Part shown: piece by piece, positions 43,949 to 47,169 of the stretch | How positions within the stretch are numbered: the stretch's first letter is position 1 | Layout: the number at the start of each line of letters is the position of its first letter | From: Nostoc carneum NIES-2107 | GTDB lineage: Bacteria > Cyanobacteriota > Cyanobacteriia > Cyanobacteriales > Nostocaceae | Assembly: GCA_002368155.1 (NCBI GenBank) | Contig: AP018180.1 | Location: 744,001 to 808,000, forward strand | DNA: 64,000 nucleotides | Reading direction: 5' to 3' | Notes under the pieces: generated by a model | What the model was told of the DNA's origin: nothing | The model's database searches: none | Seen by the model: the letters and a program-made list of their open reading frames with translations, nothing else | Position numbers and translations under genes: made by a program

Positions 43949-44368
43949 TCAAATAACAAACCAGTTCTCTATTTTCAAGTTTTGAAAATCTGCATAGTCT
44001 GAAACATTATTGGTTACCAGAGTGAGATTATTCACTTGAGCGATCGCAGCAATTTGTCCATCTGCATAAGCTGGAGGTTTACCAATTAATGTTAACCTTG
44101 CTCGTTCTATGGCAAACCATTCAGCTGCGGCAACATTGTAGGGAAGAATAGGAATATTTGGTTCGACTATATCTTGCAAATACTGCTCAATTCTCTCTCG
44201 CTTTCTAGAAGCTGGCAGACGATAGCAACCGAATAATAATTCATGCCATGTAACTGAGGCAATAGTAACTTCTCCCTGATACCGTTGCAACATAGAGATA
44301 ATTGTCGGATTCGGTTGCAACTTCAATGGTTCAGAGATGATGTTAGTATCCAATAAGAAAAGACTCAA
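43949..44368 (-). CDS. VapC-family PIN-domain toxin
   Basis: 139 residues. PIN-domain acidic residues are present: Asp7 (LLDTN), Glu43 (WHELLFG), Asp103 (YADGQIAAIA) and the Asn120/Asp124 region (TNNVSDY). PIN toxins are Mg-dependent RNases that cut tRNA or rRNA when freed from the antitoxin. The gene overlaps the antitoxin gene by 4 bp, the usual type II arrangement. Confidence 0.92.
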   Translation of the reverse strand: MSLFLLDTNIISEPLKLQPNPTIISMLQRYQGEVTIASVTWHELLFGCYRLPASRKRERIEQYLQDIVEPNIPILPYNVAAAEWFAIERARLTLIGKPPAYADGQIAAIAQVNNLTLVTNNVSDYADFQNLKIENWFVI

Positions 44369-44646
44369 AGATTCACCTCACGCCCAGGAGATTTATCGCG
44401 TACATCCTGCCATACTTCATCGGGATTAATATCGATGCCTTCTTCTATGATTTCTTTGCGAAATTTTGTCAGAGATTCCCAAAAACGAGGGCTTTTATTC
44501 AGCAATTTCTCGTATTCTGCAGATGAAAGAATAACTGCTACTTGCTGACCTTGCCGTGTAATTTGTATCGGTTCCCCTTGTTCAACTTCTTCAATAATTC
44601 TGTTAAAGTTAACCGGAATTTCTTCAATTGAATATTGCTGAGACAT
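44365..44646 (-). CDS. Phd/YefM-type antitoxin
   Basis: 93 residues. The N-terminal DNA-binding half contains QGEPIQITRQGQQVAVILS, the classic Phd/YefM strand pattern, and the C-terminal half (FWESLTKFRKE...) should wrap the PIN toxin. It lies upstream of the toxin gene with a 4-bp overlap, and the operon is probably autorepressed at a promoter upstream of 44646. Confidence 0.92.
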   Translation of the reverse strand: MSQQYSIEEIPVNFNRIIEEVEQGEPIQITRQGQQVAVILSSAEYEKLLNKSPRFWESLTKFRKEIIEEGIDINPDEVWQDVRDKSPGREVNL

Positions 44647-44812: not shown

Positions 44813-45133
44813 TTAAATACTACCAATTCTGCATTCGGGTTCAGGTTTAAATTTTGGTTTATGGTCAGCTGTCAATTATCATTGAAGAGTTAAGGCGATC
44901 GCACTACACGCTTGTACCCTCTGATATCGCTAGTGTTCGGTAGTTGCTTAACAAAATTTGATAACAAGAGATTATAAAGATGGGTTATACCCCTCACACC
45001 CAAAATGTTATACTCTGTTAATAATATACGCTGGTGCTCTCAAAAGCTATCTAAGTAGCGCTTCTTGTGATTGAGCCAACCCAGCCTCAAAAAATTTGTC
45101 AAAAATTTATACAAAAAACTTTCATTAGGGGGT

Positions 45134-45162
45134 CTTGCCCATCATCACAAAGATGCTATAAT
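45134..45162 (+). promoter_or_regulatory. Promoter of candidate small RNA, copy 2
   Basis: -35-like CTTGCC (45134-45139), a 17-nt spacer and -10 TATAAT (45157-45162). The same layout occurs in copy 4. Confidence 0.65.
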
Positions 45163-45168
45163 CATGTT

Positions 45169-45223
45169 ATATAGATGCACCCTGATGACCTGGAGAGCTG
45201 CCCAAGTAGCTCTCTTTTTTTTT
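45169..45223 (+). ncRNA. Candidate small RNA, copy 2 (about 50-55 nt)
   Basis: Begins about 7 nt after a consensus -10 box and ends in a terminator: GAGAGCT (45193-45199) pairs with AGCTCTC (45208-45214) around loop GCCCAAGT, followed by nine T (45215-45223). The 5' part GATGCACCCTGATGACCTG is unpaired and conserved in copy 4. The start is inferred from the promoter. No known RNA family is assigned. Confidence 0.55.
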
Positions 45224-45608
45224 ACTTGGGGCATGGGGCATGGGGCATTGGGCATTGGTAGCTTTTCCTCTGCCCGCGAACTTTTAGGTGTGAGATGAGC
45301 TTTATTAGTAGTCTCTTAGCTGCAAAAACTACTCAAGCATCATCTTTGAGAATTTCTGCTAGGCATAACATTAGACGCAATCGCGTCTGTACTAGCTGAT
45401 ATGTAGCTGATTATGAGGAGTCTTCATGAGAATTTTGAATCAAGCCATTAAATAACAAGTGGTATTACTCATGTTAAAAATCTACTCCTCTGCTAAGTAA
45501 AAGCACCCTGATAATTGGAAAATTTGCCCAAGTAGTTGCCTTTTGTATTTTTTGTGTTAACCTGAAAGCCAACTTCACCATATTTTCATAAAAACCTGAT
45601 TAAGGGGT

Positions 45609-45637
45609 ATTGCCCCTCAGCGAAAATATGCTATGAT
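45609..45637 (+). promoter_or_regulatory. Promoter of candidate small RNA, copy 4
   Basis: ATTGCC (45609-45614), a 17-nt spacer and TATGAT (45632-45637), with the same geometry as copy 2. Confidence 0.6.
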
Positions 45638-45643
45638 GTGGTA

Positions 45644-45694
45644 TATAGATGCACCCTGATGATCTGGAGAGCTGCCCAAGTGGCTCTCCTTTTT
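45644..45694 (+). ncRNA. Candidate small RNA, copy 4 (about 50 nt)
   Basis: Same core as copy 2. The hairpin GGAGAGCT (45666-45673) with GGCTCTCC (45682-45689) around GCCCAAGT keeps pairing: T-A becomes T-G at the loop end and a G-C pair is gained at the base. A run of five T (45690-45694) follows. Base changes that preserve the stem support a real RNA. Confidence 0.55.
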
Positions 45695-45729: not shown

Positions 45730-45840
45730 GGTAATAGGTAATAGGTAATGGGTAATTGGTAATTGGTGTTTGTTATTTCCCTTCATCTTCCTCATCTCTC
45801 AGACCCTAATCCCTAATCCCTAATCCCCAGTCCCCAATCC
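45730..45840. repeat. STRR-type tandem heptamers upstream of argJ
   Basis: GGTAATA/GGTAATT units (45730-45768) and CCTAATC units (45803-45840). Confidence 0.7.
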
Positions 45841-45893
45841 TATGGAATTTTGAAGTTTGAATTTTGAATTACATAAGACTTGGTATAATCGCC

Positions 45894-45927: not shown

Positions 45928-47169
45928 ATGGCAGACTGGCAGGAGATTACAGGTGGTATCACAGCACCAAGGGGATATCGAGCAGCAGGGATTACCGCAG
46001 GTTTAAAGCCTTCGGGATTACCTGATTTAGCTTTGATATTGTCAGATGTGGAAGCGATCGCAGCAGGTGTGTTTACCACTAGTCAAGTTAGAGCCGCTTG
46101 CGTAGATTATTGCCGCCAACGCTTACAAGCCAAGCATAATGCACGGGCAATTCTGTGTAATGCTGGACAAGCAAACGCGGCTACAGGTACTCAAGGCTGG
46201 TTTGATGCTTTAGAATCAGCGATGACAGTAGCCCAAGCTTTGAATATCCCTAGTGAATCGGTATTATTGGCTTCAACTGGGGTGATTGGACAGCGCATCA
46301 AGATGGATAAACTCAAAGCTGGGATTCCGCAACTGATAGCAGCACTTTCAGAAACAGGTTCAGATGCGGCGGCGGGAGCCATTATCACCACAGACTTAGT
46401 AACTAAATCTATTGCCCTAGAGACAAATATAGGCGATCGCCCGGTGCGAATTGGTGGAATTGCCAAAGGTTCAGGGATGATTCACCCCAACATGGCAACT
46501 ATGCTGGCATTTGTTACCTGTGATGCAGTTGTATCGCCAGCACTTTGGCAACAAATGTTGAGTCGCGCTGCTGACAGAAGCTTTAATTCCATTACTGTTG
46601 ATGGTGATACCAGCACCAATGACAGCTTAATTGCCTTAGCTAATGGACAATCCCGCACCCCAGCCATTATTGAAATGGGGCCAGAGGCGGAAAAATTAGA
46701 AGCGATGTTAACAGCAGTATGCCAGCATTTAGCAAAAGCGATCGCGCGTGATGGTGAAGGTGCAACTTGTCTAATTGAAGTGCAAGTTACGGGGGCCCAT
46801 GATGAAACTTCAGCACGTCAAATCGCTAAAACTATTGCAGGTTCATCCTTAGTAAAATCTGCAATTTTTGGACGCGATCCCAACTGGGGACGTATCGCCG
46901 CCGCCGCTGGACGTGCAGGTGTACCCTTTGAGCAAGAAAATTTGCAAATCAAGCTAGGGGATTTCTTACTTTTAGAAAATGGTCAACCACTATCATTTGA
47001 TCGTGCAGCAGCGAGTGCTTATTTAAAACAAGCAGCAGCAGGTGCGTATCTCAAAGAAGATACAGTATTAATCTCTGTGAGCGTTGGTAATGGTCATGGT
47101 ACTGGTAAAGCTTGGGGTTGTGACTTGAGTTACGACTACGTGAAAATTAACGCCGAATACACCACATAA
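45928..47169 (+). CDS. argJ: Bifunctional ornithine acetyltransferase / N-acetylglutamate synthase
   Basis: Arginine biosynthesis: moves the acetyl group from N-acetylornithine to glutamate (the cyclic pathway) and can use acetyl-CoA. It is synthesised as a precursor cut between Ala190 and Thr191 in the motif MIHPNMATML; Thr191 becomes the nucleophile. GGITAPRGYRAAGI and DGDTSTNDS are further family blocks. Length 413 is normal. A GGGAG ribosome site precedes ATG 45928. Confidence 0.96.
   Translation: MADWQEITGGITAPRGYRAAGITAGLKPSGLPDLALILSDVEAIAAGVFTTSQVRAACVDYCRQRLQAKHNARAILCNAGQANAATGTQGWFDALESAMTVAQALNIPSESVLLASTGVIGQRIKMDKLKAGIPQLIAALSETGSDAAAGAIITTDLVTKSIALETNIGDRPVRIGGIAKGSGMIHPNMATMLAFVTCDAVVSPALWQQMLSRAADRSFNSITVDGDTSTNDSLIALANGQSRTPAIIEMGPEAEKLEAMLTAVCQHLAKAIARDGEGATCLIEVQVTGAHDETSARQIAKTIAGSSLVKSAIFGRDPNWGRIAAAAGRAGVPFEQENLQIKLGDFLLLENGQPLSFDRAAASAYLKQAAAGAYLKEDTVLISVSVGNGHGTGKAWGCDLSYDYVKINAEYTT

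Follow-up and report, generated by a model that had tools for sequence, protein, structure and literature searches.

A tandem small-RNA family upstream of argJ in Nostoc carneum NIES-2107 shares its 5' module with NsiR1 and carries a candidate HetR operator

The 64,000-nt window of the Nostoc carneum NIES-2107 genome analyzed here (contig AP018180.1, positions 744,001 to 808,000) contains, upstream of the arginine-synthesis gene argJ, a tandem array of small-RNA-like units related to NsiR1, a small RNA known from heterocysts. Genome comparison establishes the conserved unit, its link to NsiR1, an operator-form palindrome (GGGN5CCC) in its promoter and the tie of this palindrome to the presence of HetR, the master regulator of cell differentiation in filamentous cyanobacteria. 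From these data we consider it probable that the units encode an NsiR1-like trans-acting small RNA, about 50 nt long, which is directly controlled by HetR and shares its seed with NsiR1. The argJ-type RNA was not found in print in a literature and sequence search of open-licence papers.

Results

Four units upstream of argJ

Four units lie on the plus strand upstream of argJ; copies 2 and 4 are intact, and copies 1 and 3 are decayed. Repeat comparison gave copies at 45165-45220, 45491-45546 (70 %) and 45639-45694 (93 %). In copy 2, the HetR-type site GGGTCTTGCCC occupies the -35 place (45130-45140; sequence and unit comparison), and the -10 box TATAAT with TG in front is at 45157-45162 (promoter scan and sequence). 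The predicted RNA of about 50 nt (45170-45223; repeat comparison, folding and terminator scan) would start at about 45170, judging from the position of the -10 box, and comprises the common 5' module TAGATGCACCCTGAT at 45172-45186 and a terminator stem at 45192-45215, followed by a T-run. Copy 4 has the same design and was delineated in the same way: the HetR-type site GGGTATTGCCC (45605-45615), inside AGGGGTATTGCCCCTCA; the -10 box TATGAT with TG in front (45632-45637); and a predicted RNA of about 50 nt (45644-45694) with TAGATGCACCCTGAT at 45646-45660, a terminator stem at 45666-45689 and a T-run. In both copies, TTGCCC is separated by 16 nt from TATAAT or TATGAT, the 5' part is mostly unpaired, and the terminator stem has 10 pairs. 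The initial annotation had given the spacing as 17 nt, which is right when counted from the 5-mer TTGCC, and had read TTGCC as a plain -35 box; it is at the -35 place but sits within a conserved palindrome of the GGGN5CCC form.

Copy 1, near 45023, is strongly decayed (15 of 41 positions mismatched). It retains the HetR-type site GGGTTATACCC (44982-44992, with the register set by comparison of argJ-type units), and its -10-like TATACT (45009-45014) begins a decayed RNA unit (45009-45066). Copy 3 (45500-45550; 13 of 41 mismatched) has lost the palindrome, leaving at 45460-45470 a degenerate remnant, TGGTATTACTC, that does not contain GGGN5CCC. Folding against shuffled sequences gave z-scores of -2.87 and -2.94 for the intact units, and 1.20 and 0.67 for copies 3 and 1, neither of which forms a stable hairpin; their earlier description as decayed relatives is borne out. 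The promoter and terminator scan gave 4 promoter-like sites (2.9 expected) and 2 terminator-like sites (0.9 expected), so that single sites are weak evidence when taken one by one.

The downstream gene, outside the RNA, is argJ as initially annotated (45928-47169, plus strand; TIGR00120, 550.8 bits; PF01960, 499.5 bits). Short tandem repeats of the GGGGCAT, GGTAAT and CCCTAAT types lie between the units and argJ (45229-45258, 45733-45770 and 45804-45831). Just upstream of the array, on the minus strand (43949-44646), is a type II toxin-antitoxin pair consisting of a Phd/YefM-type antitoxin (93 aa, PF02604) and a PIN-domain VapC-like toxin (139 aa, PF01850). The hairpin of the argJ-type unit seems to resemble the 5' half of a tRNA.

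Conservation of the unit

A 111-nt stretch around copy 2 had matches in 43 of 58 relatives. A covariance-model search, which had been proposed as a check, was made with model R1, built from 55 copies (set A1, 55 distinct copies out of 86 rows with decayed ones omitted); a second set, A2, comprised 55 of 63 references. R1 matched 211 of 217 genomes and all 56 genera of the family Nostocaceae. Because of this conservation, the repeat is not a product of chance, and comparison gives good support to the claim of a family of tandem small RNAs whose units have promoters and terminators of their own. A broader model, R2, matched 171 of 243 genomes of the order and 171 of 338 of the class; it also catches some NsiR1 units, and these counts refer to the wider kind. 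In the genome of N. carneum itself, R2 gave nine matches in the order search and three at the stricter limit of the class search. Scanning named genomes with a DNA pattern gave at least 117 stretches. Beyond Nostocales, the matches listed include Symplocastrum, Microcoleus, Coleofasciculus, Microseira, Argonema, Gloeocapsopsis and a Chroococcidiopsidaceae genome. At the named loci among the matches listed, units were single or in runs of up to six with a median spacing of 166.5 nt; one genome has eight units.

The 5' module is nearly invariant across copies, which partly reflects selection, the copies having been gathered by this module. In the stem, 95.7 % of cells pair, in line with the earlier statement that pairing survives changes in the arms. 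However, the arms are nearly invariant, and two-sided changes occur in 6 cells versus 3.5 in shuffles (38 of 500 shuffles reach 6), so that covariation gives little support.

Kinship with NsiR1

Fifteen nucleotides of the 5' module, UAGAUGCACCCUGAU, are identical letter for letter and in the same place in NsiR1 (Rfam RF02399). An Rfam search of the window at the gathering score gave no match; at a permissive threshold, RF02399 matched copies 2, 4 and 3 with 21.2, 19.4 and 18.4 bits against a cut-off of 39, with a clear match in the 5' half. The cut-off was missed because the hairpin and promoter differ from those of NsiR1. The initial annotation had found no match to a named RNA, which proved wrong for the 5' half. 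Its comparison with NsiR1 was apt but was drawn from the layout only, whereas the kinship extends to the sequence.

Elsewhere in its genome, N. carneum has a canonical NsiR1 array of 13 units divergent to hetF (NF045509), all 13 with TCCGGA; the Rfam model gives 14 matches. By sequence, the argJ-type array shares with NsiR1 the tandem arrangement of units with individual promoters and terminators. It is not located upstream of and divergent to hetF, having argJ downstream instead, and the DIF1 box TCCGGA at -35, carried by 200 of 246 NsiR1-type units, is present in none of 267 argJ-type units. Since the score, the DIF1 box and the hetF location all fail, we filed the argJ type as a distinct sister type of NsiR1. 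The two types are alike in the 5' module, in length (about 50-60 nt) and in the self-contained tandem units. They differ in the terminator hairpin, in GGGN5CCC replacing TCCGGA and in the neighboring gene, and the argJ type occurs also in genomes without HetR. The near-invariant 5' module is likely the seed, and the argJ-type RNA probably works like NsiR1 and probably uses the same seed. NsiR1 may thus be one member of a larger RNA set with one seed and two promoter kinds, of which the Rfam NsiR1 model would miss the argJ-type array.

Outside the family, NsiR1-type units with TCCGGA adjoin hetF, one or two per stretch, at loci L216, L220, L221, L223-L225, L228, L230, L231 and L233. The hetF-NsiR1-DIF1 arrangement is thus not confined to the heterocystous family.

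Two further RNAs were compared by their published descriptions. The sRNA 4547237r of Nostoc 7120, considered as a possible counterpart, is similar in being 51 nt long, verified by northern blotting and found in heterocystous strains; unlike the argJ-type RNA, which is near-universal in the family and found also elsewhere, it is described in the part of the report consulted as restricted to heterocystous genomes, 12 of 27 of which have it (PMC4734099). RNA162 of Limnospira indica, a species without heterocysts, is described in the portion seen as 57 nt long and NsiR1-like (PMC8400943).

A candidate HetR operator in the promoter

At the -35 place, argJ-type units carry a palindrome of the form GGGGNNNNNCCCC, which is exact in 118 of 267 distinct units. 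Its core, GGGN5CCC, is exact in 144 of the 267 and has one mismatch in 101 (0.8 and 3.2, respectively, in shuffles), and 125 of the 144 exact matches begin at one common position. The core occurs in 1 of 246 NsiR1-type units. In the window, copies 1, 2 and 4 have it in the promoter. In the unit consensus, T and G before the -10 box are each conserved at 84 %.

According to the parts of these reports consulted, GGGN5CCC is indispensable for HetR binding and HetR binds GAGGGGTCTAACCCCTC in the hetP promoter (PMC4649674, PMC4192349). The argJ-type promoters resemble those of the HetR regulon (hetP, hetZ) in this palindrome, with flanks close to GAGGGGTCTAACCCCTC; they differ in that the site would govern a small RNA and is conserved also in lineages without heterocysts.

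The site and the presence of HetR

HetR (PF03574) was found in 138 of 243 genomes of the order and in all 18 family genomes searched. The relation between HetR and the site was examined in genomes outside the family with a positioned best R2 match, counting the best unit per stretch; the family itself, genomes of family f32 with weak matches (E-values of 7e-5 to 0.003) and HetR-positive genomes without a listed match were omitted. In the first 70 genomes, the exact site was present in 47 of 50 HetR-positive versus 1 of 20 HetR-negative genomes (Fisher p 4.6e-13, with kinship between genomes ignored). The remaining three HetR-positive genomes have one mismatch each. The other 19 HetR-negative genomes have at least two mismatches in the site, yet they retain the RNA and its hairpin, and 10 of the 19 retain the argJ neighbor. 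Among seven further genomes, five of six HetR-positive ones have the exact site (the sixth, G274, has one mismatch), and the HetR-negative G404 has the site as well. The totals outside the family are 52 of 56 HetR-positive and 2 of 21 HetR-negative genomes. As the 19 site-less genomes come from two families (f18, 12; f8, 7), they represent few independent losses or contrasts. The HetR-negative genomes G433, G437 and G404 are 84, 73 and 82 % complete, respectively.

The two genomes with an exact GGGN5CCC and no HetR match are G041 (locus L304, 99 % complete) and G404 (L479). The other listed genomes of family f9 are mostly HetR-positive; with the incompleteness of G404, this makes an assembly gap or a recent loss of HetR possible.

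The site is less strictly kept within the family, where it is exact in only 68 of the 108 distinct units at loci L001-L061 and differs at one position in many units of Nostoc, Calothrix and the 7120-like genus. In other orders of the class, which were outside the HetR comparison, all 13 units at nine loci have the exact site. Three related loci (L273, L274 and L275, in G391, G257 and G368) have arrays of three to seven units with the palindrome GAGGGGTTGCACCCC; argJ is absent from the stretch, and the first unit has AGATACACCC where others have AGATGCACCC.

An alternative is that the units are NsiR1-type RNAs whose palindrome is bound by some other regulator or is just part of the core promoter, with HetR not directly involved. 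In its favor, the matching core is short and rich in G and C, an exact site is missing from 123 of the 267 units, and the site overlaps the -35 element, which is conserved in promoters anyway; the site is also kept in the two genomes without a HetR match. We take alr2073 to be the locus tag of argJ in strain 7120. The main text of a HetR ChIP-seq study of this strain, as far as consulted, names neither argJ nor alr2073 among 26 listed peaks at 6 h; its list omits 12 of 38 peaks by several criteria, including the lack of a misregulated annotated gene, and the known HetR targets hetZ and patS are also absent from it (PMC4192349). Against this alternative stand the distribution of the exact site with HetR while the RNA itself is retained, and the match of the flanks with the hetP operator. 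We regard it as unlikely, though as the foremost rival to direct control by HetR.

Linkage to argJ

Among the matches listed, 101 named loci have 900 nt or more of downstream sequence, and at 70 of them the following gene on that strand is argJ (median distance 223 nt); 16 loci with less than 900 nt were excluded. This linkage, which extends to HetR-negative genomes of f18 (the family that includes the Chroococcidiopsidaceae genome), would fit units that act in cis as terminated leaders or attenuators controlling argJ. However, the intact units each come with a promoter and a terminator, as many as eight units in tandem are hard to read as a single leader, and a separate TATAAT stands just before argJ (45884-45889). 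At 31 of the 101 named loci among the matches listed, argJ is missing within 900 nt; it was seen in the short stretch read for just 15 of 50 HetR-positive genomes outside the family, and different neighbors occur in other orders, outside the argJ-linked clades. A cis-acting leader is therefore improbable, and the loci without argJ and the different neighbors favor a trans-acting RNA.

That the units encode a short peptide beginning MHPDD is very improbable: an ATG in the invariant module does open MHPDDLESCPSG in the commonest units, but 217 of 253 distinct units run for 16 codons with no stop, the lengths of read-through are scattered, single-base indels occur in the loop, and the consensus has no ribosome-binding site before the ATG. 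Mobile or selfish repeats spread by transposition, which the several copies and several locations in some genomes might recall, are hardly credible given the often conserved syntenic place, the maintained promoter-terminator layout, the finding of no inverted repeats in the window region, and searches that gave no match to the unit in viral contigs, none in phages and one half-length match in plasmids (NC_019741.1, 26295-26344, Allocoleopsis franciscana PCC 7113, overlapping no annotated feature).

Discussion

Each intact unit would be a free-standing small-RNA gene of about 50 nt, transcribed alone from an extended -10 promoter (TGnTATAAT) and ending at its own hairpin. HetR would bind the GGGN5CCC operator, whose center is on the -35 element about 34 nt upstream of the predicted start, and would thereby set the level of the argJ-type RNA directly. 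The sibling NsiR1, with the same seed, would be driven via the DIF1 box; DIF1 promoters are reported, in the portion of the source seen, to depend on hetZ, which has its own HetR site (PMC7377430). With the operator lying over the -35 region and the -10 box preceded by a conserved TG, HetR would be slightly more likely to repress than to activate the unit.

The unpaired 5' module UAGAUGCACCCUGAUGAU, with the intrinsic-terminator hairpin behind it, would pair with mRNAs, the seed CCCUGAU(GAU) covering the ribosome-binding region of its targets, for example a hetP-like commitment gene. According to the part of the report consulted, NsiR1.1 of strain 7120 lies antisense to the leader of hetF, and the hetP-like alr3234 is repressed by NsiR1.4 (PMC9045159). 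We searched the starts of HetP-family genes in 16 genomes (38 loci, one without a readable core) and found one good target case, in one genus. In all four genomes searched of the 7120-like genus (g79), a hetP-like gene starting ATG TAT CAA, which we infer to be the alr3234 orthologue, has ATCATCAGGG 16 nt before the ATG; being closely related, these four genomes amount to a single case. ATCATCAGGG could form 10 pairs with CCCUGAUGAU of the argJ-type RNA and 7 with NsiR1. Matches of 8-9 nt that fit both RNAs precede HetP-family starts in two other genera. Most other HetP-family starts examined had no pairing site, and neither had the one HetP-family gene that a family search found in N. carneum. 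A search for the exact 10-mer ATCATCAGGG in three genomes of the same genus as N. carneum listed 83 sites, of which 80 were examined, four of these being the small-RNA genes. No examined site was marked as preceding a start codon and falling outside any longer frame, with L394 borderline.

The role of HetR in species without heterocysts has been called a mystery in a passage of a published paper (PMC11298460). The argJ-type RNA is a candidate direct HetR target with a defined operator, also in such species, and this operator makes the question testable with one probe. As a tentative proposal, somewhat more doubtful than not, the ancestral job of HetR before heterocysts may have been the control of a small RNA with the NsiR1 seed that has been kept across orders of the class. 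The hetF-linked NsiR1 would then be its sibling in differentiating cells, so that one seed would serve two branches of one switch.
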